Source: a virus. Taken from it: a stretch of DNA of 33,057 bases. How positions within the stretch are numbered: the stretch's first letter is position 1; the number at the start of each line of letters is the position of its first letter. Positions 3,943 to 18,594 of this stretch are shown here, piece after piece. The notes under the pieces are model-generated. The model did no database searches. It worked only from the letters and a program-made list of their open reading frames with translations, and was not told where the DNA came from. Both the position numbers and the translations under genes were made by a program. Location: positions 1 through 33,057 of IMG/VR virus record IMGVR_UViG_3300006334_000143. One strand, written 5' to 3'.

Positions 3943-4098
3943 TCAACAGGAATGCTCCTCTAATATAGGTTCTCCTACCTCAACAAAATTTAACTCACTG
4001 TTGTAAACCCAGTGCATCTTTCCCCATATATCTTTGAATTCTTCTTCCTCTAAATCCTTGATAAGGATTTTATCTTGCCAGTAAATGTGATATCTCAT
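3943..4098 (-). CDS. 51-aa hypothetical acidic protein
   Basis: 51 residues, MRYHIYWQDKILIKDLEEEE at the start and LEEHSC at the end; short, acidic and soluble with no recognisable motif. Its ATG overlaps the PTOX stop by ATGA and its stop is one base from the next ATG, so it is embedded in the PTOX operon. The aromatic, beta-strand-like start resembles other small conserved cyanophage proteins, but I cannot name a family. Confidence 0.65.
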   Translation of the reverse strand: MRYHIYWQDKILIKDLEEEEFKDIWGKMHWVYNSELNFVEVGEPILEEHSC

Positions 4099-4598
4099 GC
4101 TATCATTAACATTGCTTTATGTAGTTCTTTGGAATGTTCTAGTTCATCATTTGCTATTTCTTGTATCTTTTTATCCTCTGGATGATATGCACCATACTTA
4201 ACGTATGTCTCATAAGCATGCTTCTCAATCTTCATGTTGATGTCGTAAGCGTCCATAGGATCAACGAGATAGTAAACAACCATGACCCAATAATAAAATA
4301 GAACAAGATGTTTGGCAAAGAACCGATCAATCCAGTACTTATCGCCCTCCCTAAGTTCCATTTCTTCCAGATGTTCTGTTTCATTAAGTGCTTGATAAAA
4401 GTGTTCCTTCATTAAGTATACATGATCTTCGCCTCTAAGTCCAAGACTTTCACGAAAATGTAACACACTGATAAATGCAAAGTATGGTGCTCTGGCAATT
4501 ACTTCTAAAACCCAGAATCTTTGAAAGTCTCTACCTCTATAGAGAAAGTCTAGAATGTATATTGTAACATCTAGTACAAGTGTGTTTATTTTTTTCAT
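4095..4598 (-). CDS. ptox: Plastoquinol terminal oxidase (PTOX)
   Basis: 167 residues, a compact version of the alternative-oxidase/PTOX family (plant PTOX is about 350 including transit peptide). The RFWVLEVIARAPYFAF segment matches the PTOX helix RFWVLETIARVPYFAF. All six di-iron ligands are present: Glu32, Glu73-x-x-His76 (NETEH), Glu125 (EKHAYE) and Glu152-x-x-His155 (DELEH). The enzyme oxidises plastoquinol and reduces oxygen to water at the thylakoid membrane. In phage-infected cyanobacteria it is thought to act as a safety valve, relieving over-reduced photosynthetic electron transport and allowing ATP production while carbon fixation is off. It overlaps the 53-aa gene upstream and the 51-aa gene downstream by ATGA. 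PTOX is a known but not universal cyanophage gene. Confidence 0.95.
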   Translation of the reverse strand: MKKINTLVLDVTIYILDFLYRGRDFQRFWVLEVIARAPYFAFISVLHFRESLGLRGEDHVYLMKEHFYQALNETEHLEEMELREGDKYWIDRFFAKHLVLFYYWVMVVYYLVDPMDAYDINMKIEKHAYETYVKYGAYHPEDKKIQEIANDELEHSKELHKAMLMIA

Positions 4599-6051: not shown

Positions 6052-6848
6052 AAGAATTCAATCCCTTCATTAAATCCAAAGTCGTCACCAGCATCGACCA
6101 ATGCATCATCTGCTGCATCAATAACACCATCAGTATTGATATCAGTTTTTGCTTTTGGTGTATATGTTCTAGTAATAGTTCTGCGATTGATTGCCTGATC
6201 ACCAAGAGTTTCATGTATGATTGCTTTCTTGATAACATCTGATGTGTTGTAAGGACCGTATAGATAGGTCTTCATCTGGAAGTTAAGAGTGTAAACAATA
6301 TATCTACGTTCGTAGAAACTGTCATCCCATGTATCCTCATATGATACGTTGTTTAATACAACAGCAATATCTCTCTTCTCATTCATATCAGGTATCATGT
6401 TGAGAGTAACACTGAATGATGGTTGGAAATATGGTAGTATCTGCTCGGTAATTTGTAGAGCATCGTCTTGTGACTTAGCAATTACACCAAGTTCAAATGA
6501 TAGATTATATGGTACAGGAACATACTGCACTCTAACCTCACCACCATTATCATTGATTATAGTTTTGTATTTCTGGATGGGGGAAGTTTTACGGGTAGGA
6601 TCGTAGTCAATGCTAGTCATCTCAAAGTACAATCTTGGTAGAGTGATTGCTACTTTTCTGTTGCTAGTGTTTTCTTCTAGTCTTACAATAAATTTTTGTT
6701 TAGGACCGTATGCTAACGGTACTTTCATTTCTTCTAATACAGCACCAGTGCTTGGATCTGTGCTCTTCATACTAATATTATTGAAGAGTGTACCAAATGC
6801 TATGATGTTCTTACGAACTATCTGGTTGTAAAAATGATTGCCTAACAT
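6048..6848 (-). CDS. gp15: Tail sheath stabilisation and completion protein gp15
   Basis: 266 residues, close to T4 gp15 (272). The start MLGNHFYNQIVRKNIIAFGTLFNNI, the VPLAYGPKQKF segment and the region around QITEQILPYFQPSFSVTL are characteristic of T4-like gp15, which forms a hexameric ring at the head-proximal end of the tail and joins tail to neck. The C-terminus carries an acidic DINTDGVIDAADDALVDAGD stretch resembling a calcium-binding dockerin-like loop, an extension I do not expect in T4. Start and stop overlap neighbours by 1 and 4 bases. Confidence 0.93.
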   Translation of the reverse strand: MLGNHFYNQIVRKNIIAFGTLFNNISMKSTDPSTGAVLEEMKVPLAYGPKQKFIVRLEENTSNRKVAITLPRLYFEMTSIDYDPTRKTSPIQKYKTIINDNGGEVRVQYVPVPYNLSFELGVIAKSQDDALQITEQILPYFQPSFSVTLNMIPDMNEKRDIAVVLNNVSYEDTWDDSFYERRYIVYTLNFQMKTYLYGPYNTSDVIKKAIIHETLGDQAINRRTITRTYTPKAKTDINTDGVIDAADDALVDAGDDFGFNEGIEFL

Positions 6849-7738
6849 TATATGCTACCTGTAAAATTACCAAACTCACCGAATGGATTACCTTCTGACC
6901 AATCAACTATATTGTCAGCAGCATCTTCGATTTGTCTATTTGCATCGTACTCACTATTTGTATCCTGTAGTGTATCGAAGGTTGATACAACCCATACAGC
7001 ACTACTGGTATTACCCGTAAGTGATTCGTTTGCTGCAAATGTTCCAGTTCTATTGATTACCTGTAGTATTCTTGTAGAACTATCCCATGACTTAACTTCT
7101 GCTGTTGTAGAAGTAGTACCACCAGTAACAGTCTCACCAGTAGTAAAGTCTCCTGTGCCACCCACTCCCATAGACAAAGCAATAGCACTATCGAACAACT
7201 CCTCTATGGCATCTATCTCTGCAATACCTGTAGCAAGATCGTCTGAACCAACCTCGTATAGTTCTGCAGTCAGTGCATAGAATTGAATCTTACCAAACTG
7301 GAAGAATGGTTCTTCCTTTCCTACATATTTAATTTCATACAAATCTTCTGTAAGAGGATAATATAATAAATCTCCTTCGTTAGGTCTGCTAGGAACTGTG
7401 AGTTTTGCAGCCATGCCATGTTCTGCCACTTCCTCATCCCATCTATTTGTAGAAACACGAAAAATTATTTCGTCTGTAATACGTAAACCAAACTTGCTTA
7501 TAAATTCTGCATTGTCTCCAAAACCCATGACGTTAACTAACATCATTTCAATTTGAAATTGATCTTGGAATTTAGTATATCTAACCTCGTCTAACGTGCC
7601 ATCTGTTATAGCTGTTTTGGGTAGATAGTATATGTCAGAACCAAAGAGTTTGATTTGCTCATCCACAAGATTCTGAACCAAAGTTTGTTCGCCACTGTGA
7701 CCTTGGTGATAAGTTGGGAAGTAGGGACTTGTAGGCAT
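6848..7738 (-). CDS. gp14: Neck protein gp14
   Basis: 296 residues (T4 gp14 is 256). The N-terminal two thirds (SPYFPTYHQGHSGEQTLVQN start, GSDIYYLPKT, FQIEMMLVNVMGFG, DEIIFRVS, RPNEGDLLYYPLTEDLYEIKYV) is the conserved T4-like neck protein, part of the head-completion/neck collar. At about residues 195-255 a beta-rich module (TGETVTGGTTSTTAEVKSWD ... GTFAANESLTGNTS) is inserted, of a type otherwise common in phage fibre proteins, before a C-terminal segment ending NPFGEFGNFTGSI. It follows gp13 after a one-base gap and overlaps gp15 by one base. Confidence 0.92.
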   Translation of the reverse strand: MPTSPYFPTYHQGHSGEQTLVQNLVDEQIKLFGSDIYYLPKTAITDGTLDEVRYTKFQDQFQIEMMLVNVMGFGDNAEFISKFGLRITDEIIFRVSTNRWDEEVAEHGMAAKLTVPSRPNEGDLLYYPLTEDLYEIKYVGKEEPFFQFGKIQFYALTAELYEVGSDDLATGIAEIDAIEELFDSAIALSMGVGGTGDFTTGETVTGGTTSTTAEVKSWDSSTRILQVINRTGTFAANESLTGNTSSAVWVVSTFDTLQDTNSEYDANRQIEDAADNIVDWSEGNPFGEFGNFTGSI

Positions 7739-7739
7739 T

Positions 7740-8552
7740 TTATCCGATCATATCCATTGGTGGTATAGCGTACTTACTGAGAACCTCACCTTCGATTTTC
7801 TCAATTTCTGCTAGTGCGTCCATGTAAAGTTCTCTACCATTGAGTGTTACACCGCCAGGTAATTGAACATTGTTATACTTGATTAAGTTCTGACCCCACT
7901 GTTTCTTCAACAATGAAGTAGCATATCTTTTTACAAATATATCATTATACATTTCGGTTGCATCTGTAGGATCAATCATACGATGAGCCTCTATCAATAA
8001 GTTCTGTCCTTCTTGAAGAAAGTCCTTATCTATATCTAGATACAAACGATCACGACGCTGAGTATATCTAAACTGTTGAAATGAACCATTGTTTAAAACC
8101 ATATCTAGAGTCTCTAGATATTGCTTGGTCATATAGTAGTTTAAGATATCAAGAGATCCAAAGGCATACAAATCATTTAAGAATATTCTATATTCAATAC
8201 CAAATAAGTTAGAACGGATAGAGTTACCTACCATTCCAAATACCTTACTAATACCAGATACATGTGATGGTATAGGTATAAAATTTGTTGCTTCTTTCCA
8301 AGTGGTAGTTACACCAGCATCTACTTTAGTTGTATCAGTAGTTGCTGCAAGACGAGTTTTATCATCTGCAGTTATCTCGTGTACTAGATAACACCTCTCC
8401 ATACCATTGTAACAATTCTCTTGAAAGAACTGAAATGTGTCATCAATTACATTGTTTACTTGCTCATCATCTACGTTAACTTGCAAGACAGGTTCACCTA
8501 ATTGCCTCTTAGCATATGTAATCAATTCTGCTTTTGTACTTGGAGATGCCAT
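7740..8552 (-). CDS. gp13: Neck protein gp13
   Basis: 270 residues (T4 gp13 is 309). The start (TKAELITYAKRQLGEPVLQV), VDDEQVNNVIDDTFQFFQEN, the FGIEYRIFLNDLYAFG region and VKRYATSLLKKQWGQNLIK match T4-like gp13, which forms the head-to-tail connector neck with gp14. A strong late-promoter motif (8583-8576) lies 24 bp upstream. It is the first of the 13-14-15-16 block, all four genes being spaced by 1 base or overlapping. Confidence 0.93.
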   Translation of the reverse strand: MASPSTKAELITYAKRQLGEPVLQVNVDDEQVNNVIDDTFQFFQENCYNGMERCYLVHEITADDKTRLAATTDTTKVDAGVTTTWKEATNFIPIPSHVSGISKVFGMVGNSIRSNLFGIEYRIFLNDLYAFGSLDILNYYMTKQYLETLDMVLNNGSFQQFRYTQRRDRLYLDIDKDFLQEGQNLLIEAHRMIDPTDATEMYNDIFVKRYATSLLKKQWGQNLIKYNNVQLPGGVTLNGRELYMDALAEIEKIEGEVLSKYAIPPMDMIG

Positions 8553-8575: not shown

Positions 8576-8583
8576 TTATTTAG
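8576..8583 (-). promoter_or_regulatory. T4-type late promoter before gp13
   Basis: CTAAATAA on the minus strand, 24 bp upstream of the gp13 ATG and overlapping the stop codon of the preceding 66-aa gene. Position and sequence fit the T4-like late consensus. Confidence 0.6.
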
Positions 8584-8780
8584 GAAGGATCTATGTTTGC
8601 GGGTGCTGCGTCAGGTGCTGGTGCATTTTCTTGCTCTAAAAGACCTAGAGTTTCTAGTCCTCCTACAAGTTTTAATTTATATTCTTTTGCTTTCTCTAAT
8701 TGCTTTTCTAACTCCACTATCTGAGCATCAGTCTTACCTATTTGCTCTTCAAAGTTAGTTTTTAGTTGTGCTGGATCCAT
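8580..8780 (-). CDS. 66-aa coiled-coil hypothetical protein
   Basis: 66 residues from the ATG at 8780 (MDPAQLKTNFEEQIGKTDAQ). Residues 10-45 form a heptad-like helix (IVELEKQLEKAKEYKLKLVGGLETLGLLEQ) that should be a coiled coil, followed by an Ala/Pro-rich tail. A TTG at 8789 overlapping the previous stop (TTGA) could add three residues; the ATG is chosen because similar small cyanophage proteins begin at MDP. It lies between the oxygenase array and gp13. Function unknown. Confidence 0.7.
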   Translation of the reverse strand: MDPAQLKTNFEEQIGKTDAQIVELEKQLEKAKEYKLKLVGGLETLGLLEQENAPAPDAAPANIDPS

Positions 8781-8785
8781 GGTTA

Positions 8786-9328
8786 TCAAGGTAAAAAATT
8801 AAAGTTTATTACGAATCGAGGTTTCTTTGTGGGTACGCTACTTGAATGATATCGTAGACCATCAAAGAAAACGCATCTACCTTTTACGGGAGATACTGTA
8901 CTATTTATAGGGTATTCAGCAAGCGGTTCTCCGTACATTCTTTCGCTAAAATACGTGTCACCATCACTGTCTGATGCATAGTATAGACATACCAAATGTG
9001 GATCTGGTAAGTCAACATGCATAGAATCATACTCTTTTGTTCTCACACCTGGCGTCTGTAAAAAACATCTGCCACGTATGACTTTAGATATTGATATGCC
9101 TGTATTATGACATGCTTCAAATACTAATGGAAGAAACATTCCAGAGTATTTACTTGTAGAATTACCATTCAATATGAACATATGAGAGAAACCTACTAAC
9201 TGACTCTCACCATCTTCACTAAGATTATCATGATATACCCATCTAAATTCTGTATCATATCTCATAGTGCTTTCTAAAAGATTTTGATAGTTAGGATTGA
9301 TACAGTTGTCTTTAATAATGTTCTTCAT
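8786..9328 (-). CDS. 2-oxoglutarate/Fe(II) oxygenase 7
   Basis: 180 residues. The double-stranded beta-helix (cupin) oxygenase triad is present: His104-x-Asp106 (SMHVDLPD) and distal His161 (RYHSSSVP), with Arg171 for 2-oxoglutarate binding (KKPRFVINFNF). Between them are typical strands (LVCLYYASD, GDTYFSER). The substrate is unknown: such enzymes hydroxylate proteins, nucleic acids or small molecules using 2OG, oxygen and iron. It is the last of seven tandem family members, starts 17 bases inside the previous gene, and resembles the EGxx/HVD phage-type subgroup more than the prolyl-hydroxylase-like members. It differs enough from its neighbours that recent duplication is unlikely. Confidence 0.85.
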   Translation of the reverse strand: MKNIIKDNCINPNYQNLLESTMRYDTEFRWVYHDNLSEDGESQLVGFSHMFILNGNSTSKYSGMFLPLVFEACHNTGISISKVIRGRCFLQTPGVRTKEYDSMHVDLPDPHLVCLYYASDSDGDTYFSERMYGEPLAEYPINSTVSPVKGRCVFFDGLRYHSSSVPTKKPRFVINFNFLP

Positions 9329-9908
9329 CTACACCCTCCACATTCCATATTAAGTTACCAGATACTGTTACCCTTTCTTTTTGTGTAGACTTAAAAGGAT
9401 ATACAGCATGTTTAGTTGTAGATGGAAACATAAGTATTACACCATTCCAAGTTTTATCTACTGGCAATACATCTGCTTCTAATTGAAAAGCACCATTACT
9501 ATTATGTGACTCTCTTTCTTCAGAACCATATGGTATGTCTGTAAAGATTACAAAACTCACTATACCAGTGTGTGTATGTATAGGATTGTATTCATACTGT
9601 TGCTGATAATTTACCCATAGGTTTCTCAGTCTTATAAAAGGAGTTACATTTTTTGTTTCTTGAAAGTCCCACGGGCATGTTTGATATACCTGTGACCATA
9701 ACTGTGTAGATAGTCTAACAACATATTCTTCAAACTGTGGACTCCAATCAGATAGACTTGACTGTTGTTCTAATGCACCAGCAAGTTTATCATTGTAATT
9801 CCAAGTCTCTTCCTCCCTTCTTCTCTGTGTGTAAGAAAGTAATTCTTGATATAAATTTTGTGGCATTTTCTCTGATAGAAAAGAGAAACTATCTTGACTG
9901 TATATCAT
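9312..9908 (-). CDS. 2-oxoglutarate/Fe(II) oxygenase-like protein 6 (HxH type)
   Basis: 198 residues. The first metal motif is His111-x-His113 (NPIHTHTGIVSFVIF) instead of HxD, with distal His167 (TTKHAVYPF) and Arg179 (KERVTVSGNLIW). This is a putative 2OG-Fe(II) oxygenase subgroup in which the acidic ligand is replaced by His. The N-terminal 100 residues are helical (YQELLSYTQRRREEE) with an aromatic, basic character. It overlaps the preceding gene by four bases (ATGA) and the next by 17. Activity is plausible but not assured because of the ligand change. Confidence 0.8.
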   Translation of the reverse strand: MIYSQDSFSFLSEKMPQNLYQELLSYTQRRREEETWNYNDKLAGALEQQSSLSDWSPQFEEYVVRLSTQLWSQVYQTCPWDFQETKNVTPFIRLRNLWVNYQQQYEYNPIHTHTGIVSFVIFTDIPYGSEERESHNSNGAFQLEADVLPVDKTWNGVILMFPSTTKHAVYPFKSTQKERVTVSGNLIWNVEGVDEEHY

Positions 9909-10420
9909 GCGTATAAATCTGCACTTAAACTATATCGTTTTTCATTTTGAATACCTTTGCCAGGCAAGTGTGGTAAGTTAGATGGAAAGATAAACCAAGT
10001 TAATTCTTTTTTAGGTAAAAAATATGGATCTCTTTTTGGCATAGGGAACATAGTAGTTCCAGACTCACCTAGTTTTATATACATTATACCAGATAATGTG
10101 AAAGGATTGTCTGGATTGTGTGAATGCATATATGGTTCTATTGGATTATCATTCCAATCTACATACACCCATGAATTTATTTGGAAATCAAATATATCCA
10201 TACCCCAATACCTAGAACAAGCATCATGAAATGTCCATTTTAATTTTTTGATAATAGGTTCATCATACTCTAAGAAATCATCTTTACCATCAGTAAAGGT
10301 AAGTTTAGATACATGAGCTATGTTTTTAGTGAGAGAATTGTTTTCAATATTAGTATCAATAAACTCTATAAGTTTATCTGCATCAATATCTACTGGATAC
10401 TCTCTAATTCCTAATACCAT
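9905..10420 (-). CDS. 2-oxoglutarate/Fe(II) oxygenase-like protein 5 (HxH type)
   Basis: 171 residues. Metal motif His99-x-His101 (YMHSHNPDNPFTLSGIMYI) resembles the P-x-H-x-H followed by SG-x-x-Y pattern of a putative 2OG-Fe(II) oxygenase family (TIGR02466 as I recall), with distal His151 (LPHLPGKG) and Arg162 (EKRYSLSADLYA). The strand order (WFIFPSNLPH, RYSLSADL) fits the double-stranded beta-helix. It is similar in type, though not closely identical, to the following gene (oxygenase 6). Its start overlaps the previous gene by 10 bases. Confidence 0.8.
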   Translation of the reverse strand: MVLGIREYPVDIDADKLIEFIDTNIENNSLTKNIAHVSKLTFTDGKDDFLEYDEPIIKKLKWTFHDACSRYWGMDIFDFQINSWVYVDWNDNPIEPYMHSHNPDNPFTLSGIMYIKLGESGTTMFPMPKRDPYFLPKKELTWFIFPSNLPHLPGKGIQNEKRYSLSADLYA

Positions 10421-10992
10421 TTTCTTGTATTCTGTTCAATTATCTTATCGTGAATCTCAGGATCACAAAATGAGAAAGCGATAGTAGTTCTAATCTCATT
10501 ACCTATTAATGTATTAGGAGGTTGTCCTTTATGTAACCAATTAGAAGGAATCAATGCACCTGTATTAGGTACATATGGTGTGTGATGATACTCGTCATCT
10601 GGTGTTTGACATACAAACTCACCACCCCATTCCTGATCCCAATGTGGTTGATTGAAGTATATAAATGTCCAGACATTGTGTTCTTCCCAGTCCTTATGAA
10701 ACATTGTATTCTGTCCTGCTGTCTGTCCATTAGCATGTATCTTACAGAGTTTGATATCTCTCCTAAGAAATTTCATTATCTTTAATCTAACTGTAGTAGC
10801 ACACTTAGTAAATATCAAATCAGTTCTTAGTGGATGCTGCCATGATACTGGATCACCCTGTCCATAAGATGCATTATTAAATGTCCATGTAGCAAGTGAG
10901 TTCATAGATGGTGATCTACGATCAAAGTAATCCCATAATGATATTCTCTCTTGTTCAGATAAAACATTACGAATGACGTGAGGTTTATTCAT
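10411..10992 (-). CDS. 2-oxoglutarate/Fe(II) oxygenase 4
   Basis: 193 residues. Triad His99-x-Asp101 (FHKDWEEH), distal His154 (NWLHKGQPP) and Arg168 (EIRTTIAFSF), with the conserved WGGEF turn at residues 122-126. The N-terminal segment (HVIRNVLSEQERISLWDYF) resembles the helical cap of small Fe(II)/2OG hydroxylases. It overlaps the previous gene by ATGA and the next by 10 bases. Chemistry: oxidative decarboxylation of 2-oxoglutarate coupled to substrate hydroxylation; substrate not known. Confidence 0.85.
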   Translation of the reverse strand: MNKPHVIRNVLSEQERISLWDYFDRRSPSMNSLATWTFNNASYGQGDPVSWQHPLRTDLIFTKCATTVRLKIMKFLRRDIKLCKIHANGQTAGQNTMFHKDWEEHNVWTFIYFNQPHWDQEWGGEFVCQTPDDEYHHTPYVPNTGALIPSNWLHKGQPPNTLIGNEIRTTIAFSFCDPEIHDKIIEQNTRKWY

Positions 10993-11522
10993 GCGTCACC
11001 CCATATCTGAATTGTATATCTATACTCAGGTGTGTCATGTGCAACAGTAGTTACTAAGTGACTTTCACTACAGTCATTTAATACTAGCATATTTTGTTCT
11101 GGTAGAACTGCTCTGTAAACATCAGTTTTATTTGGATCTTCATCTAAATTTAGATCAGCATGATCCATCCACACAAACCAACCACCAGCATTTGGATGCC
11201 AATGTTCATTCAGATATAATGTTGCACCAAACAAATGATGAGTGTCAGAATGTACTCCAATACCAGCACCTGGTTGCCATACATTATATCTACATGTCAA
11301 CTTTTTAAACTCAGGTGCATGTGGTTTCAAATGTATTGATATTTCATCGCTGAATACTTTTGGAATAGCAGTAGCAATAGTTGATCCATGAACACCTTGT
11401 CTTAAAAATGGTTTCCATGCAAAGTTACTAGAAGACCAGCAGTCAGTGTTTAACTTAGATCTAAAGTCGTCTACACATGCATCAAGTAATTGTTTAGGTA
11501 AAAAGTTCTTTATAATTTTCAT
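10989..11522 (-). CDS. 2-oxoglutarate/Fe(II) oxygenase 3
   Basis: 177 residues from the ATG at 11522, which overlaps the previous stop by ATGA; an in-frame upstream ATG at 11537 (five extra residues) is less likely. Triad His91-x-Asp93 (GVHSDTHHLFGATLYLN), distal His155 (SESHLVTTV) and Arg168 (EYRYTIQIWG). The PNAGGWFVW turn is the family's GG-x-F/E element. The N-terminal KIIKNFLPKQLLDAC is the usual helical start. Third enzyme in the array. Confidence 0.85.
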   Translation of the reverse strand: MKIIKNFLPKQLLDACVDDFRSKLNTDCWSSSNFAWKPFLRQGVHGSTIATAIPKVFSDEISIHLKPHAPEFKKLTCRYNVWQPGAGIGVHSDTHHLFGATLYLNEHWHPNAGGWFVWMDHADLNLDEDPNKTDVYRAVLPEQNMLVLNDCSESHLVTTVAHDTPEYRYTIQIWGDA

Positions 11523-12082
11523 ACCCACCAAAGCCATCCAGTTATAATATATTTGTCATGTTCTTCTGAAATCACACCTCTATGTTTATGTGTCAATCCA
11601 GCAGGAAAAATTAATGTTTTTCCTTTCTTTGCTTCTACAGTATATTCCTGATAAAAGAATTCAGTTCCTCCATTAGGAACATCATTTAGATATGTGATGT
11701 ATACAAATGCTCTATCACACCCATCAGATCCTGATGCATCCACATGCCAAGTATAAAAACCATCACCTGGTTTATAGTATTGAATCTGTGGTAGTCTTTG
11801 CATTACAAATTCTTGATTGTGAATAGTCAAAGAGTTCAAGTAATTATCAATAAATCCATTTAACTCTTCTTGGTATAAATCAAATTTATAATCACTAGGT
11901 TCTCCTAGAGGACCTGCGTCTTCAATAAAAAAATCTCTACTCTTTTTAACCTCAGGCATGACACTCCCACCACCTACACGACCAGCATAAGTCAAATCTA
12001 TTTTATCGGCGTCTTTGTATAGATCTATGAGACGATCACATATACTAAGATCACTCAATGTATATTCTTTTATAAATCTCAT
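11519..12082 (-). CDS. 2-oxoglutarate/Fe(II) oxygenase 2 (prolyl-4-hydroxylase-like)
   Basis: 187 residues. Prolyl-4-hydroxylase-type core: QYYKPGDGFYTWHVDASG with His113 and Asp115, a YITYLNDVPNGGTEFF strand-turn, distal His165 (LIFPAGLTHKHRGV) and Lys177 (DKYIITGWLWW) as the 2-oxoglutarate binder. The N-terminus is helical with an acidic FFIEDAGPLGEPSDY segment. It overlaps the previous gene by ATGA. Members of this subgroup hydroxylate proline in proteins or modify other peptides; the phage target is unknown. Confidence 0.88.
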   Translation of the reverse strand: MRFIKEYTLSDLSICDRLIDLYKDADKIDLTYAGRVGGGSVMPEVKKSRDFFIEDAGPLGEPSDYKFDLYQEELNGFIDNYLNSLTIHNQEFVMQRLPQIQYYKPGDGFYTWHVDASGSDGCDRAFVYITYLNDVPNGGTEFFYQEYTVEAKKGKTLIFPAGLTHKHRGVISEEHDKYIITGWLWWV

Positions 12083-12645
12083 TTATATGCAGGTCCTTGT
12101 GTCCACCCAACAAGAGAATGTCTAACACCTTTAGTCACTGGTTTAACTCTGTGTGGAGTATCAGCATGAAATATTATAACATCTTTCTTCTTTAATTGTA
12201 CCACATTTTTTTCAGTTGTCTGTATCTCAAATTCACCACCTTCAAAATCATCATTTAACATAACTGTAAAACTTATTTTACGTATCCTATTGTTAGGTCT
12301 TTTACCTTTTGTCCAACCCATCTCATCACAATGCCAATCATAGAAATCACCTACATCATATTTTGTACGTTGTAAAGGTTCCATAAAATTTACATCTAAA
12401 TTCCAGTCACATTTTGTATTAGCAAAATGCACAAGACCATCCATCATTGCATAGACTTCATCATTGTCTATCCAGCATAACTTTGAACTTCTATCTTTAT
12501 TATCTTTTGCTTGATATTTATTACCATCCCATTGATCTGTCTTACCTGATTCATAATCTTGATATGGTTTTATTGCTTTTTCTAATTGTGGAAAGAAATC
12601 ATCATCAAGATGGACTACCATGTATTGATGTTTAAATGAATTCAT
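12079..12645 (-). CDS. 2-oxoglutarate/Fe(II) oxygenase 1 (prolyl-4-hydroxylase-like)
   Basis: 188 residues from ATG 12645. An upstream in-frame ATG (12681) adds 12 residues, but 12645 overlaps the previous stop by ATGA as elsewhere in the cluster. Core: KYDVGDFYDWHCDEMGW with His105 and Asp107, FTVMLNDDFEGGEFEI, then VIIFHADTPHRVKPVTKGVR with distal His165 and Arg175, and SLVGWTQGP at the end. This is the most canonical P4H-like enzyme of the seven; the PV-T-x-G-x-R-x-SL-x-x-W ending is typical. First of the array, directly after the U32/methyltransferase gene. Confidence 0.9.
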   Translation of the reverse strand: MNSFKHQYMVVHLDDDFFPQLEKAIKPYQDYESGKTDQWDGNKYQAKDNKDRSSKLCWIDNDEVYAMMDGLVHFANTKCDWNLDVNFMEPLQRTKYDVGDFYDWHCDEMGWTKGKRPNNRIRKISFTVMLNDDFEGGEFEIQTTEKNVVQLKKKDVIIFHADTPHRVKPVTKGVRHSLVGWTQGPAYK

Positions 12646-14324
12646 TTTTGTAATACCATAACATGTATACCATTCCACCAACCATTAGGATCTTCTGGAA
12701 CTTTAGTTAATATTTTTCTCTCAAACAATAAATTTAATTTATGTTCTTTTACCCAGAACTCAGATGATTGCACAACACCCATAAAGTTTGCATCATCAAC
12801 AACAAGAATAAACTTGTCTGCAAGTGCAGGAATTAAAAATGTAAGATTATCATACTGAGCTTGTGGATCGTGGTCTGCGTCATAGAAAATTACATTAGGT
12901 TGTTTGTGTATATCTCTAGGAGTTAGATCTTGAATAGTCTTAGCACAAAAATATTGTTTCTCTTGTAGTCCTGCCCAAAATATTTTCTTAGGATCTTCAT
13001 ACCCTTCTACCTCTACTTCATCTCTAAAAGGTGATATCTCTTTCTCAGAATAATTATCTATAGCAAATGATTCTACATCTCTATTCATAGTAGCAGCATA
13101 GAATGTACTGCCAGCATGAACTCCTAACTCCATGTAGATTGCATCAGGTTTAGATAATAAATTATTTAAAAAATGTCTTACTATGTTAGATGACAGACCT
13201 TCATACTTATATCCTTCCTCTATAAAATTACTTTCTCTCCTTGCTGCCTTATCAATAGATTCTAATACTAATTTAATATCATCATCAAAATGTCTGTCGT
13301 TCTTTTTCATTCTAGATTGAACAACAGAATCACAATAATTACAGTCCCAACAATCAAACTTACAATTTTTAATTTTTTCTCGCCATATATCAATTGGTCT
13401 TTCTTCTAAAGAGACGTCTTCAATATACTCATTGAACTGTGGATGTAAAAGTTCTTCATTAGTTTTCCATCTATTAATAATAGACATACTCTCATAGAGA
13501 CGCATAGCATTTTCTCTACCATGCATCTTGAATACATCTATACCAAGATCAATAAATTCTTCCCAGTCTTCTCTCCATGGAGATATAGTTGCTGCTTTCA
13601 ATGATGCAGCAGGATCTTTCTCATCCCATGTAGAACAAGATACTCTACTGATACTATCATTAAAATATTGTGGATCATCTTTTTCTCTCACCATATTATA
13701 ATGGTAATGCTCTGGCATGATCGGGCATCCACCCCAACACCACTCATTAGAAAGTAATGATATCTTGACAGGTTTACCTATAGATGCACAATATTCTTTT
13801 GCTTTCTTAATTCTAAGTAGAGAATCTCTATCACGCATAAGATCTCTGTCTAGATTAATATAGTAGAATCCTGCCTTTGCAAGATTTACAATTTCATTTG
13901 GTCTAGTAACTTCTCTAAGTATAGTATTCTTTACTTTTAATTCTGGAAACTCTCTTTGTATCTGCCCAGTCAACATCCATGTTGTATGTGGTAGAGTAAC
14001 TATACGAACACCATTGTCATACAAGAATCTAAAATTCTCAATAAAAATATCCAAGTTCTCTTGTGTAGGAGGAACTTGGATATTATTAAATGTTGCAGAC
14101 AAAGGTATCCCAGTTTCCTGTGATACAAACAAAGCATTTAAAGTTGTCTCTCTAATGTCGCCATCAATTACATCACCCATCGCATCCTGTGTGAAGGGTG
14201 GCATACGACAAGTAAAATAGATATCGTAGATATATTCCTTGTGTTCTTTTAGAAAAGGAATAAATTGGTTTACTACAAAATCCTCAGGTAATTTAGTATT
14301 AAGAGGTAGCGAGAAACTTGCCAT
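12642..14324 (-). CDS. U32-like iron-sulfur domain fused to a SAM methyltransferase
   Basis: 560 residues, two parts. Residues 1-335: a TIM-barrel-like domain resembling the peptidase U32 / UbiU-UbiV / RlhA family. Cys39, Cys179, Cys196 and Cys200 (WCWGGCPIMPEHY) are spaced almost as the iron-sulfur cysteines I recall for UbiV, and GIDVFKMHGRENAMRLYESM matches the U32 FK-x-x-GR-x-x element. A second cluster, Cys321, 325, 328 and 331 (CKFDCWDCNYC), follows. Residues about 380-560: a class I methyltransferase resembling the Methyltransf_24/TylF group, with motif I IYMELGVHAGSTFY, acidic Asp423 (SFAIDNY), FYDADHDPQ and ILVVDDANF. U32 proteins in bacteria perform oxygen-independent or prephenate-linked hydroxylations of RNA or quinones. 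The substrate here is unknown. It overlaps the neighbouring genes. Confidence 0.75.
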   Translation of the reverse strand: MASFSLPLNTKLPEDFVVNQFIPFLKEHKEYIYDIYFTCRMPPFTQDAMGDVIDGDIRETTLNALFVSQETGIPLSATFNNIQVPPTQENLDIFIENFRFLYDNGVRIVTLPHTTWMLTGQIQREFPELKVKNTILREVTRPNEIVNLAKAGFYYINLDRDLMRDRDSLLRIKKAKEYCASIGKPVKISLLSNEWCWGGCPIMPEHYHYNMVREKDDPQYFNDSISRVSCSTWDEKDPAASLKAATISPWREDWEEFIDLGIDVFKMHGRENAMRLYESMSIINRWKTNEELLHPQFNEYIEDVSLEERPIDIWREKIKNCKFDCWDCNYCDSVVQSRMKKNDRHFDDDIKLVLESIDKAARRESNFIEEGYKYEGLSSNIVRHFLNNLLSKPDAIYMELGVHAGSTFYAATMNRDVESFAIDNYSEKEISPFRDEVEVEGYEDPKKIFWAGLQEKQYFCAKTIQDLTPRDIHKQPNVIFYDADHDPQAQYDNLTFLIPALADKFILVVDDANFMGVVQSSEFWVKEHKLNLLFERKILTKVPEDPNGWWNGIHVMVLQK

Positions 14325-14547
14325 AATCTACGATCACTGCTTCCATATATAAATGTTCTTCACCAGGTTTATCTACTAAGATATCCTTGTGTACTTCTGC
14401 TAATTGTTCCAACTTTACTTGATCCAATTGTGGATATGTAATAGTGTCGCCACTTGTATCCCCTAATTCATACCTTTGCCATATAGCATGATGAATTACA
14501 GGTAATAGATCAAGATGTCTACTTGTTGGATTAAAAAATCTATCCAT
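14299..14547 (-). CDS. 82-aa hypothetical protein before the oxygenase block
   Basis: 82 residues from ATG 14547 (MDRFFNPTSRHLDLLPVIHH), chosen because AAGGGGAC sits just upstream, a strong Shine-Dalgarno. A longer in-frame start at 14586 has none and lies inside the preceding gene. It overlaps the preceding gene by 8 bases and the next by 26. The sequence is soluble with a helical QLDQVKLEQLAEVHKDIL segment. No family recognised; it is the first gene of the putative oxygenase transcription unit. Confidence 0.75.
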   Translation of the reverse strand: MDRFFNPTSRHLDLLPVIHHAIWQRYELGDTSGDTITYPQLDQVKLEQLAEVHKDILVDKPGEEHLYMEAVIVDYGKFLATS

Positions 14548-15376
14548 TGTCCCCTTGTAATTTGTATTGGTTTTCACCCTGTCCACTATATTTATGTTCT
14601 AACAGTTTAGGCATTACTATACCATCCTGTGCCAACTGTGCTTGTAACTTAGGTGCGATCATTTTATTTAGTTTGTCAATACCACCACCAATCATACCAG
14701 AATACTGAACAGCAACACCAAGTGTTTCTACCTGATCTTCCTCTGGCATATCCATGATTGTAGTCATGTTACCAGAACCAATTCTACCATAAGAAATAAT
14801 ATCCATTGCTGCTTGTTTGCCCATACGAGCAATCCAATACATTCTTACTTCCTGATGATTCTCTTGACAATAATACTCTAAAGGATGCTCGTCGTCAACA
14901 TATTTGTCAACAACATTTAAGAAATACTTTAACTCTAGTTCAGATTGCCTGAGTTTCCTTTTCCAAATACCAATATCATAATCATTTTTTTCCATATCAA
15001 TTTGCATCAACTCTCTATCAAGTTCGTCAGGAAGCAATGGCATGTCCCTGTTCAATCTTTTTCTAAGAATCTCTGCCTTTCTAAGACTATTTCTATTCTC
15101 CATGTATGCATGATATCTAGTTTCTAGTTCCATCAATGCTTGACGGACTTTTCTCCATGGAGTTAATTGAGGGTCAGCAACAAAGTGCTCACACTCATAC
15201 TCTGTCATACCACTATCAAAACGCATAGATGCAGACAAGACATCAAAGTCTTTCTTAGTGAGTGCGAACTCGTCTACAAATGACTTTGATAAATGTATTT
15301 CGTTTGTGTCTGAACTTATTATATTTTTTACGTCTGCAATTATATCTGAAAAATTAGCGTCAGAATTTAAAGACAT
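14540..15376 (-). CDS. Putative virion structural protein (278 aa)
   Basis: 278 residues, highly helical and charged: long helices at about residues 80-165 (METRYHAYMENRNSLRKAEI-like stretch, then DYDIGIWKRKLRQSELELKY) and a C-terminal Gly/Met-rich segment (GRIGSGNMTTIMDMPEEDQ, YSGMIGGGIDKLNKMIAPKL). I believe similar proteins are conserved in cyanomyoviruses in this position, next to tail-fibre genes, and are treated as virion proteins, but I cannot name a T4 homologue. It overlaps the upstream gene by 17 bases. A helical scaffold, chaperone or baseplate role is equally possible. Confidence 0.7.
   Translation of the reverse strand: MSLNSDANFSDIIADVKNIISSDTNEIHLSKSFVDEFALTKKDFDVLSASMRFDSGMTEYECEHFVADPQLTPWRKVRQALMELETRYHAYMENRNSLRKAEILRKRLNRDMPLLPDELDRELMQIDMEKNDYDIGIWKRKLRQSELELKYFLNVVDKYVDDEHPLEYYCQENHQEVRMYWIARMGKQAAMDIISYGRIGSGNMTTIMDMPEEDQVETLGVAVQYSGMIGGGIDKLNKMIAPKLQAQLAQDGIVMPKLLEHKYSGQGENQYKLQGDNG
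14589..14596 (-). promoter_or_regulatory. Possible late promoter for the 82-aa gene and oxygenase array
   Basis: CATAAATA on the minus strand (then TAGTG), one base from the T4-like consensus, about 42 bp before the start at 14547. It is inside the end of the preceding coding region (codons for HKYS), so a coding coincidence cannot be excluded. Confidence 0.4.
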
Positions 15377-16169
15377 AGGGTTCTACCTCATACTCTGGTT
15401 TGCGATCCCAGTCAGTATCAGATTTTGTTCTCCCCATCTCAATCGCTTGCTTTTGAGGCAACATGATACCAATGTGATCTTCATATAATATATTTAGGTC
15501 CCATACAGAATCGCAATTTTCAAATTTCTTTATCAATATCTGGTATTGTACTAACATTGTAGATAGTTTATCTTCCCATGCTTCTGCATTTGTAAGTATC
15601 TTATTTGCAAGAGTGTCTTTGTCAATATGTCTTTCAGCAGATAGGTAGTCTAAGAAAGGAGTTTTACTACCACCTAGTCCTTTATTTTCTAACCATTCTC
15701 TTGCTTCATGCTTTTGGATTTCCCAAGATGCTACTTCTAGATCTGTAGTGTTCTTAAGATTCTTAAGACGTGTGTTGTATTCATCTTCAATAATTTCTTT
15801 TGCAAAATATATCATGAAGTCTACAACTTCTTTCTTAATTGCATCTGTAAGTTCAATGGGAACTTTTAAAACTGGGTTAGCAGGAGTCCATGCATAACCA
15901 GCTGAATCAACTGATGCAGCAACTTTACCATATGGTCTAATTTCTGAGAAGAAGTTTGATCCGTTATATGCTTGTGCTTTTGTAACTTCTAAGTATTTGT
16001 GTTCCCATTCTTTAGATATAGTTTGGAAAACTGTTTCACTGACCTCTACACATGAGAAGTGCATCAACGAAAACATTTCGCTGTAGTGCAGTCTGGTATC
16101 TCCAGAAGCAGTCATGTTTACAAACTGTTCTGGATTGATTTCTTTTTCGTTGACGATTAAGTATCTCAT
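15360..16169 (-). CDS. Putative virion structural protein (269 aa)
   Basis: 269 residues, mixed alpha/beta. The first 110 residues are beta-rich and aromatic (RLHYSEMFSLMHFSCVEVSE, WAPN-type turns), then a long helical region (TDAIKKEVVDFMIYFAKEII ... EAREWLENKGLGGSK) and a tail with VQYQILIKKFENCD. I do not recognise a domain. The start overlaps the fibre gene stop by one base (TAATG) and the end overlaps the next gene. Context suggests a tail or baseplate component. Confidence 0.7.
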   Translation of the reverse strand: MRYLIVNEKEINPEQFVNMTASGDTRLHYSEMFSLMHFSCVEVSETVFQTISKEWEHKYLEVTKAQAYNGSNFFSEIRPYGKVAASVDSAGYAWTPANPVLKVPIELTDAIKKEVVDFMIYFAKEIIEDEYNTRLKNLKNTTDLEVASWEIQKHEAREWLENKGLGGSKTPFLDYLSAERHIDKDTLANKILTNAEAWEDKLSTMLVQYQILIKKFENCDSVWDLNILYEDHIGIMLPQKQAIEMGRTKSDTDWDRKPEYEVEPYVFKF

Positions 16170-17455
16170 TATTGTGCTCGTTTAGCAGTTACAGAAGCGG
16201 ATGCTGAACAGCAACCACCAGAAGATGTTCCATAATGTCCTTTTGGTCTAGTAGCAGCTGGCATATTTGTTTCAACGTCAGTGGAGTAATCCCACTTAGT
16301 TGTATGGTTGTTCTGCTGACCATCATATTGTCCCATCATGTATCCTTTGTCTTGTCCCATCATCATGTTTTCTTCACCATAAGCACGAACTTTAGTTCCG
16401 TTCTTAAGACCAGCTCCAGATGATCCACTGTATTTAGTCCAAGGTGATGTAACGTTGTTACCAGTTCCACAGTAGAAGTGACCATACTTAGAAGGAAGTG
16501 GTTTACAAACTCCGTCAGGAGCCATGTTAGATGACCAACCAGCCCAACTATCGTTAGAATGATTGACGTAGTATCTACTACCACGGAAGGATACCCAAGA
16601 TCTATTCTCATCACCACAAGATGCAGTGTGGTCATTACCAGATGGTGAGTTACCTACCTGATACATGATCTCAGATGAGTAGTGAAGTTTACCTACAGCA
16701 GAGTTACCTCCACCTAAGTTATAACCAAACTGTTGTACCTGTGCAGTAGCAGTTGAGTTTCTATCTCGGTTAACTGGCATATTCCAACCACCAACAGTTG
16801 TATATCCCATAACTCCTCTAGGATCGTCTCCTTCCCAACCATATGGTGAGGTTGGAGAGTAAGTACCACCGCCTGGGTTTGATCCTGTAGTACCAAACAT
16901 TCGTCTCATACCTGTGTGTAGGTTGATCGAGTCTGTAAAGTTAGAAGATCCCGTGAAAGAGTTAACGCAACCATGACCATACCCGAAGTAATCACTCCAT
17001 GTACAGTCAGCGTAAGTAAGTGCTCTAGTTAATTGTTCTCCACAATAGAAAGTAATATCATTTGCATGCCATGTTTTATTAACCGTTCTCCAAGGATTAG
17101 ATCCTTTATACCCCGCCACCAGATAACCATGTGTTATCAAACTTCTGTATCTAAATCCTGTTAAAGGTGCAGACGCAACTGTCTGACCAGGATACGCCCA
17201 GAAAACACCATTACTTCCATCAGATACTAGATAAGAACCTCTAGTTACATCTGCTGGTTCTGGTATACCACCACCAACTTCATCCCAGTCTGAACCATTC
17301 CAAATCTGTGCCTTACCTTCAGATGTATTGAAGATTAATTGACCTACGTTTGGTGATGCTGGTCTATTCGAGTTATTAAAAGATGGCAGCTTAAGACCTT
17401 GCGTCGTTAAACTCGCATTACCTGTTAAAACTGTTCCAACTGTTAACTGAGACAT
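16169..17455 (-). CDS. Putative tail fibre/collar protein with distinctive C-terminal domain (428 aa)
   Basis: 428 residues. The N-terminus (QLTVGTVLTGNASLTTQGLK, RPASPNVGQLIFNTSEGKA, QIWNGSDWDEVGG) is the common cyanophage fibre N-terminal module, in which the GxLIxNTxxxxxxxWNGxxW pattern recurs. The rest is a Gly/Ser/Tyr/Trp-rich domain with conserved-looking cysteines (TFYCGEQL, YADCTW, GHGCVNS, TASCGDEN, DGVCKPL, FYCGTG, SGGCCSAS) and many aromatic residues, suited to receptor or sugar binding. It ends in basic TAKRAQ. A late promoter lies 25 bp upstream (17487-17480). Tail-fibre assignment is by composition and position; the specific receptor is unknown. Confidence 0.7.
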   Translation of the reverse strand: MSQLTVGTVLTGNASLTTQGLKLPSFNNSNRPASPNVGQLIFNTSEGKAQIWNGSDWDEVGGGIPEPADVTRGSYLVSDGSNGVFWAYPGQTVASAPLTGFRYRSLITHGYLVAGYKGSNPWRTVNKTWHANDITFYCGEQLTRALTYADCTWSDYFGYGHGCVNSFTGSSNFTDSINLHTGMRRMFGTTGSNPGGGTYSPTSPYGWEGDDPRGVMGYTTVGGWNMPVNRDRNSTATAQVQQFGYNLGGGNSAVGKLHYSSEIMYQVGNSPSGNDHTASCGDENRSWVSFRGSRYYVNHSNDSWAGWSSNMAPDGVCKPLPSKYGHFYCGTGNNVTSPWTKYSGSSGAGLKNGTKVRAYGEENMMMGQDKGYMMGQYDGQQNNHTTKWDYSTDVETNMPAATRPKGHYGTSSGGCCSASASVTAKRAQ

Positions 17456-17479
17456 GGTTACACTACTTTCCTATAATTG

Positions 17480-17487
17480 TATTTATG
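17480..17487 (-). promoter_or_regulatory. T4-type late promoter before the 428-aa fibre gene
   Basis: CATAAATA on the minus strand, 25 bp before the ATG at 17455 and overlapping the stop codon of the preceding small gene. Good sequence and position match. Confidence 0.55.
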
Positions 17488-17836
17488 GTTTTGGATGCTC
17501 TTCTTTAACAGCTTTAATATGAGCATACCATTTTGATGTTTCTTTACCTGGTAAACGACCTTCATCAATGTCATGCCAAAGCATGTCTAATTGCTCTGCA
17601 AACATATCATATTTAATTCTTCTTTCAAGATCGTAAGGAGGCACTGGTAGTTCTTTTTTCTCGATCTGACCAGTTCCTAAGTTGTAATGATACTCAGGTG
17701 CTTCGCACCCTTTTTCAATTTCATAAGGACCGTCTGCCCACATGAAATCTTCATGAACTTCAAATCTGGCATCAGAACCACCTTTTACGATTTGTATGAC
17801 CTCGCCAGTATATTTGTTAATTAGTGATTGATGCAT
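17483..17836 (-). CDS. Small tail-fibre-associated protein (117 aa)
   Basis: 117 residues. The C-terminal half (PPYDLERRIKYDMFAEQLDML, WHDIDEGRLPGKETSKWY, IKAVKEEHPKP) follows a pattern I know from short proteins encoded next to phage fibre genes, with the EQLDMLWHDID...AVKxxxPKP signature; they are usually called hypothetical or fibre-assembly-like. The N-terminus is a small beta-sheet (YTGEVIQIVKGGSDARFEVH). It starts two bases after the glycine-rich protein and probably aids assembly of, or caps, that fibre. Confidence 0.7.
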   Translation of the reverse strand: MHQSLINKYTGEVIQIVKGGSDARFEVHEDFMWADGPYEIEKGCEAPEYHYNLGTGQIEKKELPVPPYDLERRIKYDMFAEQLDMLWHDIDEGRLPGKETSKWYAHIKAVKEEHPKP

Positions 17837-17838
17837 GA

Positions 17839-18594
17839 TTATGTGTAGTTATAAACGATAATACAGCCTGCACCACCATAACTGTTATTGTGTGCAAAAC
17901 TGTTTTGTGAATAGTAACCGTAACCTCCTCCAGATCCCCATTGTCCATGAGTAATCTCTTCTTGGTTATTGGCATAGTGATGTGAACCACCAGGTTTGTG
18001 CCAGAAACTAGATCCTGCACCACCTTCTCTGTCTGCTCCGTGTGCCATTTCACCACCACCGCCAGGTAAGTTAATGTCACCACCAGATGCTGATCCACCA
18101 GGACCTCCCTGATATGGGTTATCTGTTTGACCACCTTGTCCACCAGCAGCAGTTACATAAGAACCAAAGGATGAAGTTCCTCCAGTTCCACCTCTACCAC
18201 CGTTACGAGCATATCCTCCACCACCACCATATGTGTAGTTGACAGAGTTTACACTAGAAACATCAATGTATTTAATAGCAGTTGCTCCACCACCGCCACC
18301 AGCACCACGGTAAGAGTTGTCATTAACTCTTGCTCCACCGCCACCACCTGTACAATATACAAGAACATGATTACAACCACTAGGTTTAGTCCAAGTTCCT
18401 GATCCACCAGAGGTTGACTTAGAGTTCCATGTACCATCTTGAGAAGTAAATGTTTGAATGCTTATCAAAGCACCAGGAGTTGCCATGGATGAATATCCAC
18501 TGCCATTCCACACTCTTATCTCATCATTTTGCAAATCCATAATATTAACACCAGCGGTGTTTTGGATCTGATCTACTTTTAAAATACCTGCCAT
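17839..18594 (-). CDS. Glycine-rich tail fibre protein (251 aa)
   Basis: 251 residues. A short N-terminal attachment segment (GILKVDQIQNTAGVNIMDL) of the kind that starts many cyanophage tail proteins, a linker with WTKPSGCNHVLVYCTGGGGG, then a long glycine-rich domain with runs such as GGGGGATAIKYI and GGRGGTGGTSSFG and a C-terminal AGCIIVYNYT. Glycine-rich sandwich domains of this type form distal fibre tips that bind receptors in phages. A late-promoter motif inside the end of the upstream giant gene lies 39 bp before its ATG, and AAAGGAA is a good ribosome binding site. Confidence 0.8.
   Translation of the reverse strand: MAGILKVDQIQNTAGVNIMDLQNDEIRVWNGSGYSSMATPGALISIQTFTSQDGTWNSKSTSGGSGTWTKPSGCNHVLVYCTGGGGGARVNDNSYRGAGGGGGATAIKYIDVSSVNSVNYTYGGGGGYARNGGRGGTGGTSSFGSYVTAAGGQGGQTDNPYQGGPGGSASGGDINLPGGGGEMAHGADREGGAGSSFWHKPGGSHHYANNQEEITHGQWGSGGGYGYYSQNSFAHNNSYGGAGCIIVYNYT

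Follow-up and report, generated by a model that had tools for sequence, protein, structure and literature searches.

A conserved array of seven diverged Fe(II)/2-oxoglutarate oxygenase-like genes in the virion region of a T4-like cyanophage fragment

The 33-kb virus fragment IMGVR_UViG_3300006334_000143 of IMG/VR (33,057 nucleotides (nt), hereafter the window), whose gene content is that of a T4-like cyanophage, carries seven open reading frames (ORFs) side by side on its minus strand at 8786-12645. We named them A to G, and the sequence analysis confirmed them as Fe(II)/2-oxoglutarate (2OG) oxygenase-like genes, seven distinct members of that superfamily. The array is real, conserved and little noticed, its gene content being already in public records. 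Its position among virion genes, its modular composition and the protein hydroxylases among its solved relatives suggest that it may encode protein hydroxylases made late in infection, possibly acting on fibre-tip proteins of the phage itself.

Membership, divergence and conservation of the seven genes

Each of the seven proteins exhibits an iron triad, with HxD in A, D, E, F and G and HxH in B and C, followed in all seven by a distal histidine. Downstream of this histidine stands a putative 2OG residue, an arginine in six proteins and a lysine in F; this conserved Arg/Lys position binds 2OG in Fe(II)/2OG oxygenases. We sorted F and G as prolyl 4-hydroxylase (P4H)/PKHD-like, B and C as HxH-type, and A, D and E as others. 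An earlier note on this DNA had described seven adjacent overlapping genes, all with the triad and the Arg/Lys and belonging to at least three subtypes, two of them P4H-like and two HxH-type; all of this was borne out.

The search with profiles of each protein, as advised by the earlier note, gave a divided result: B, E, F and G scored above the curated Pfam cut-off for 2OG oxygenases, and A, C and D, which fell below it, were reached only by PHROG or iterated profiles. PHROG families named 2OG oxygenase were matched by A (at 3e-4 only), B, C, F and G, and the sole PHROG match of D and E, weak for E, was phrog_274, named 'DNA endonuclease V'. Iterated profiles were run from 38 seeds over 2410 genes of 170 loci, reversed sequences yielding no more than one hit for any seed. 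The profile seeded with D retrieved all seven proteins and no other window gene tested; the triad-plus-Arg/Lys pattern was present in 99.7% of 620 hits of 140-280 amino acids (aa), compared to 20% of 592 non-hits of the same size. Shallow hhalign pairs linked C with B (E 1.5e-5) and gave nothing for A with G or A with D.

Compared with the PDB, the profile of B and five relatives matched 3bvc (5.6e-14), that of F and three relatives matched the prolyl 4-hydroxylase 3itq (8.5e-9), and that of G and four relatives matched the PiuC PKHD hydroxylase (1.5e-8) better than a P4H (1.8e-4); the profile of A showed no match to solved chains. In NCBIfam, G matched the Fe2+-dependent dioxygenase NF003974 (1.3e-16) and PKHD-type YbiX (8.7e-7), both below cut-off. 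Fold prediction in this analysis covered C alone, the weakest member by Pfam. The AlphaFold2 models of C had predicted local distance difference test (pLDDT) scores of 80.8 for the best and 80.2, 74.2, 56.2 and 45.7 for the others, the last two being poor. The best model aligned with 3bvc_A at Z 16.4 (root-mean-square deviation 2.7, 161 aligned), with further structural matches to 2rg4, SnoN, PolD, AviO1, PHD2 and the Pseudomonas putida P4H with EF-Tu. C is predicted to have the 2OG-oxygenase/double-stranded beta-helix fold. The name 'DNA endonuclease V' found no support for A, D and E: they have no match to phrog_624, where the annotated pyrimidine-dimer glycosylase of S-CREM1 falls, this protein serving for the comparison in place of T4 DenV. 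A link of D and A to FlmC (22.5 and 16.7 bits against a cut-off of 240), a name absent from the papers listed, was not used.

The seven genes are clearly diverged, as the earlier note had also maintained. BLAST among them (E<0.05) found only F with G (31% over 94 aa, E 3e-4) and a 30-residue match between A and B (E 0.009), and six of the seven match other phages better than each other, C having no match at 1e-5. We rejected a fresh tandem duplication, the proteins other than F and G being nearly undetectable to one another by BLAST. When 24 such genes were scattered at random among 230 in 200,000 trials, both gene numbers being assumed for this fragment, a run of seven arose with a frequency of 5e-6.

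For conservation, distinct orthologs from contigs of the same lineage as the window were kept if they matched 90% of the window protein at an identity of 45% or more. Iron ligands and Arg/Lys were invariant in all of them (A 23, B 26, C 24, D 29, E 18, F 31 and G 29 orthologs). The median pairwise ratio of nonsynonymous to synonymous substitutions (dN/dS), computed with our own Nei-Gojobori script on pairs with dS of 0.1-2, was 0.093 for A, 0.138 for B, 0.165 for C, 0.077 for D, 0.114 for E, 0.123 for F and 0.196 for G. The reference values were 0.082 for the neck protein Ad2, 0.120 for the neck protein Hc2 and 0.076 for the sheath stabiliser, so that constraint on G and C is somewhat looser than on the neck genes. 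These ratios indicate that A to G are maintained by selection.

Block architecture and arrays in other phages

The array is enclosed by two further genes, H and S, the first and the last of the block (Table 1). The earlier note had called for a search for the same ordered block elsewhere, and we found it in 31 contigs (the window among them) that contain H together with S or the neck gene. All 31 show the same order, G-F-(E)-D-(C)-B-(A), with contents GFEDCBA in 14, GFDCBA in 13, GFDCB in 2 and GFDBA in 2. G, F, D and B were present in every block, E was absent from 17 of the 31 complete blocks, and E, C and A were missing singly or in pairs, which indicates that these three are dispensable. 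Since each is lost from otherwise intact blocks, the enzymes probably work independently; the idea of the earlier note that they act in sequence did not hold, and an obligate ordered seven-step pathway is disfavoured. In contig L015, an S-adenosylmethionine decarboxylase-like (SpeD-like) gene stands between G and F (7082-7459), and L017 and L019 have an ORF or gap of similar size at this place.

From H through to S, neighbouring genes overlap at all eight junctions, by 4-19 nt. For G, the start is most likely the ATG at 12645 (the ORF list has a TTG at 12681), giving a 4-nt overlap with H. Beyond the block, the heptamer CTAAATA lies at -31/-32 of the neck gene in 33/33 contigs, window included, compared to 0.57 expected from shuffles, and no sense copy was found inside H to A (0/32 contigs). 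From the overlapping junctions and this late-type motif after the block, with none inside, we infer that the block is probably co-transcribed late with the upstream virion genes. The fixed position before the neck gene is the only informative aspect of the heptamer; its upstream sites differ from one relative to another. Sigma-70-like promoters were fewer in the window than in shuffles.

The earlier note had taken cyanophages to carry single copies of this superfamily and had implied that such a string was unprecedented. Neither view stands: published counts, as far as the available texts give them, reach 5 per genome and 24 in S-SCSM1, nine adjacent genes are so named in S-CREM1, and we read ten in Syn9. 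The Syn9 genes (gp45-gp54, NC_008296) were read as being of 2OG/cupin type: gp45, gp48 and gp50 lie above Pfam 2OG cut-offs, gp49 matches JmjC_2 (1.3e-16), gp52 matches DUF6445, and gp47, gp51 and gp53 are weaker in Pfam; gp46 and gp54, with no Pfam match, were assigned on weaker evidence, from motif, shared PHROGs and S-CREM1 counterparts. Like the window's array, that of Syn9 consists of small adjacent genes on one strand behind fibre and glycine-rich (Gly-rich) fibre-assembly genes, and it includes A-like (gp51, gp53), F-like (gp50) and HxH-type (gp45, gp47, gp48) members. Unlike the window, it has ten genes with JmjC_2 and DUF6445 members and two tryptophan halogenases upstream, and the flanks examined contain neither H nor a neck gene. 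The nine 2OG/JmjC genes of S-CREM1 (ORF72-80, OP535465), so named by its authors, are adjacent as in the window but Syn9-like in content and site; the accessible portion of that paper (PMC9964418) counts ten such genes and makes no mention of a tandem layout or of tail fibres.

The Syn9 record labels five genes of this array as 'ferrochelatase', 'minor coat protein' or 'DNA endonuclease V'. Proteins resembling 2OG oxygenases carry the PHROG names 'minor coat protein' (1644) and 'DNA endonuclease V' (274) and, with less certainty, 'ferrochelatase' (2954, 3531); the proteins concerned are A and D of the window (8786-9328, 10411-10992) and Syn9 gp46 and gp51-gp54 (L050). The number of 2OG genes in cyanophages may be underestimated.

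S-SCSM1 resembles the window in its many diverged 2OG genes (24; PMC9602691). By our profiles, four adjacent genes lie beside tail-fibre genes, three being named 2OG and one 'minor coat protein'; unlike in the window, others are spread across the genome. The same paper, in its available text, discusses host reprogramming and 2OG/nitrogen balance, and not the tandem layout. S-CAM4 (gp161-gp156, NC_031900) has in the same slot as the window an H homolog, a 2OG gene, an S-like ORF and neck Ad2, but with one clear 2OG gene (gp158), plus gp160 (phrog_1644) and gp159 (phrog_2415). The halogenase/carbamoyltransferase/2OGFeDO cluster of S-SSM6a shares with the window hydroxylating enzymes, including the A-like AGH07740, and follows large ORFs taken for fibres from their size and place; of three of its proteins compared with 2OG profiles, AGH07740 matched, AGH07735 matched more weakly and the third did not. 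It differs by its carbamoyltransferases and halogenase, neither of which was found in the 31 ORFs of the window scanned with PHROGs, array neighbours included, the window being a fragment. Between the large ORFs and this cluster stand three paralogs with 16-18% Gly (219312-221705; 14313-16706 of L252), the first of which, phrog_4205, is also Cys-rich. Phage proteins resembling human EGLN3 are widespread 2OG oxygenases of marine phages, PHROG 61 included; unlike the window's genes, they are treated as single proteins, and no gene arrays are described in the accessible part of the source (PMC12774648).

Among 154 distinct loci, nearly all chosen for a 2OG gene and counted with proteins found by their own seed only, the longest 2OG run was 1 in 48, 2 in 28, 3 in 13, 4 in 13, 5 in 16, 6 in 19, 7 in 13, 8 in 1, 9 in 1 and 10 in 2. 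Grouping 232 loci by relatedness, with the same 2OG bias, gave runs of at least four in 23/112 groups. Run and flank counts may be slightly off, since in L029 and L160 the Gly-rich gene escaped the greedy gene caller. In L122, a distant viral contig of 12,319 bases, 11 2OG-like genes are interspersed with a gp43-like and a tryptophan halogenase-like gene. Our full-text literature search, which had the Syn9 genome paper outside it, found no account of tandem 2OG arrays as such and no report of phage fibre hydroxylation, which does not establish that none exists.

Link to fibre genes and possible function

The array lies beside tail-fibre and neck genes, as the earlier note had pointed out. On one flank of the block, PHROG profiles identified the terminase small subunit, the sheath stabiliser and the neck proteins Hc2 and Ad2; the opposite flank holds a tail fibre of 3448 aa, a Gly-rich fibre-assembly protein and several genes of the structural region. 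Homologs of the Gly-rich protein, with 22-25% Gly, are found upstream of the arrays in Syn9, S-CREM1, S-WAM1 and P-RSM6 (phmmer 1.7e-29 to 1.3e-17 in a 17-protein set, so that these are small-database E-values). It is present in 12/12 contigs of the window's lineage with enough upstream sequence, plus L029 and L160. In the four cultured phages, and not in the window, one or two tryptophan halogenase genes stand between it and the array. The arrays in L089, L094 and L132 adjoin neck genes of distant T4-like phages.

We tentatively read the block as a late cassette of independent protein hydroxylases, with fibre-tip proteins of the phage as the likeliest candidates among putative substrates; this reading is possible, and we would not call it probable. 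The cassette would be read late in infection together with the upstream fibre genes, and each enzyme would bind Fe(II) via HxD/H...H and 2OG via the Arg/Lys and use O2 to hydroxylate its own side chain or chains, independently and in no pathway. More tentatively, the substrates might be newly made fibre-tip proteins (the Gly-rich fibre protein, the tail fibre and the products of the genes at 14540-18594), the hydroxyl groups might adjust adhesin stability or receptor contact, and single enzymes might be gained and lost as substrates change. Independent late protein hydroxylation is favoured by the location, the modularity and the protein hydroxylases among the solved relatives, namely P4H for F, PiuC-type PKHD and P4H for G, and PHD2 and the P4H with EF-Tu for the model of C; relatives of Syn9 gp49 are the ribosomal oxygenases NO66/MINA/L16 arginine hydroxylase. 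The enzymes are probably not virion parts, since the account of 45 virion proteins of S-SCSM1, in its available portion, names no 2OG oxygenase among them despite the 24 genes.

Several observations weigh against this reading. The Gly-rich protein and the array have five or six genes between them in the window and in Syn9, other cyanophage 2OG genes adjoin DNA, tRNA or photosynthesis genes, and the nine 2OG genes of S-SZBM1 are described as scattered in the part of its report at hand. Labelled virion genes lie at most three genes away in only 8/22 array groups (those with at least three flanking genes) compared to 13/88 groups with shorter runs (p 0.03; 9/59 singleton groups and 4/29 pair/triple groups), the labelling being incomplete and made by similarity to few reference genomes. 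This association is only modest, and we dropped the idea of a strong general rule placing arrays next to virion genes. No collagen-like repeats were found in ten virion proteins of the window, the longest GXY run being 4, and a collagen-like fibre substrate was rejected on this ground. The antibiotic-pathway enzymes PolD, SnoN and AviO1 match C too. CTAAATA is one base off the cyanophage late promoter NATAAATA, as given in the accessible text of PMC2984593, and its count over the whole window is at chance level.

Two alternatives are serious rivals to the fibre-tip reading. The enzymes might hydroxylate host proteins, e.g. ribosomal proteins or an elongation factor, and bias translation or other machinery towards the phage, which we consider unlikely but worth weighing. 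The ribosomal-oxygenase relatives of Syn9 gp49 and the P. putida P4H with EF-Tu among the matches of C point this way; no JmjC match was found in Pfam for any of the seven, and host takeover would need neither the placement in the virion region nor the repeated linkage to fibre-tip genes. A cassette tailoring a small molecule, lipid or surface glycan seems slightly less likely again. A halogenated metabolite or capsule decoration was proposed for the S-SSM6a cluster (PMC7824862, in its available part), where carbamoyltransferases, a halogenase and an A-like 2OG gene stand together; halogenase genes precede the arrays of Syn9, S-CREM1, S-WAM1 and P-RSM6, and the antibiotic-pathway enzymes among the matches of C would fit as well. 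The dispensability of E, C and A argues against such tailoring, as does the lack of halogenase and carbamoyltransferase among the scanned ORFs of the window fragment.

We regard action on nucleic acids, by repair or base modification, as improbable. An AlkB-type repair role is suggested for Syn9 2OG genes in the accessible text of PMC2984593, and some cyanophage 2OG genes adjoin uvsX/uvsY/helicase or RusA; for the seven proteins, no Pfam match to AlkB or TET/JBP is listed at E<=1, the profile of G reached TET-like chains only at 0.45-0.8, and the block does not adjoin replication genes. Still more improbable is that the enzymes serve to turn host 2OG to succinate, altering nitrogen signalling, as proposed for cyanophages in the portion of PMC3037559 available: one enzyme would suffice for this, and seven diverged, selected proteins point to different substrates.

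Extended beyond the window, the fibre-tip reading would mean that marine T4-like phages carry modular protein-hydroxylation cassettes, with up to ten 2OG oxygenases and sometimes halogenases, which diversify their own receptor-binding fibre tips post-translationally; in this general form we hold it to be doubtful. Marine phages commonly carry 2OG oxygenase genes, which are unexplained and as a rule classed as metabolic; selectively maintained tandem arrays within the virion region, partly concealed by mistaken annotation, make a vague question testable. If phages do chemically modify their own adhesins, host-range prediction from sequence would miss a layer, and adhesin diversity would have a post-translational route.

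Gene neighbourhood and other features of the window

Table 1 Features of the block and its neighbourhood in the window.
Feature	Position	Strand	Evidence and remarks
A: 2OG oxygenase-like, HVD...H...R	8786..9328	-	phrog_274 1.5e-34 (named 'DNA endonuclease V'); phrog_61 3e-4; PF13640 0.003 (below cut-off)
B: 2OG oxygenase, HTH...H...R	9312..9908	-	PF13759 3.2e-10; phrog_81 2e-20
C: 2OG oxygenase-like, HSH...H...R	9905..10420	-	phrog_81 5.8e-8; Pfam E 0.11 (below cut-off)
D: 2OG oxygenase-like, HKD...H...R	10411..10992	-	PF13640 4.7e-5 (below cut-off); phrog_274 4.9e-17
E: 2OG oxygenase, HSD...H...R	10989..11537	-	PF13640 3.8e-7; phrog_274 weak, 9.7e-4
F: P4H-like 2OG oxygenase, HVD...H...K	11519..12082	-	PF13640 1.3e-11; phrog_61
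G: P4H/PKHD-like 2OG oxygenase, HCD...H...R	12079..12645	-	PF13640 3.7e-15; phrog_61
H: 560-aa companion, first gene of the block	12642..14324	-	phrog_1458 5e-228; 4-nt overlap with G
S: 69-aa ORF, last gene of the block	8580..8789	-	phrog_580; in relatives directly after A, or after B where A is missing
CTAAATA heptamer, late-promoter-like boundary past the array	8577..8583	-	31 nt upstream of the neck gene
Neck protein (head-tail adaptor Ad2)	7740..8552	-	phrog_211 4.7e-45
Gly-rich (25%) fibre-assembly/fibre-tip protein	17839..18594	-	phrog_863 'tail fiber assembly' 3e-73
Tail fibre, 3448 aa	18607..28953	-	phrog_5342 E 0

The C-terminus of H is Methyltransf_24-like (PF13578 2.8e-5, slightly below cut-off). 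Its N-terminal part is of unknown fold with conserved cysteines, the model (pLDDT 47.8) being too poor for use; cysteines 196, 200, 230, 321, 325, 328 and 331 are invariant across 16 sequences. The assignment of H as a U32-type hydroxylase was abandoned as it showed no Pfam or PDB match. Many cyanophage records hold DNA matching the C-terminal half of H or more.

The window scan for RNA families and tRNAs found none. A plastoquinol terminal oxidase gene is located at 4095-4598, near the neck and terminase genes. In Hc2 (6848-7738), the stretch of about 178-261 matches fibre/baseplate profiles, and the stretch 54-144 of the tail fibre (18607-28953) matches positions 224-313 of the Hc2 profile; Hc2 and the tail fibre perhaps have a domain common to neck and fibre.

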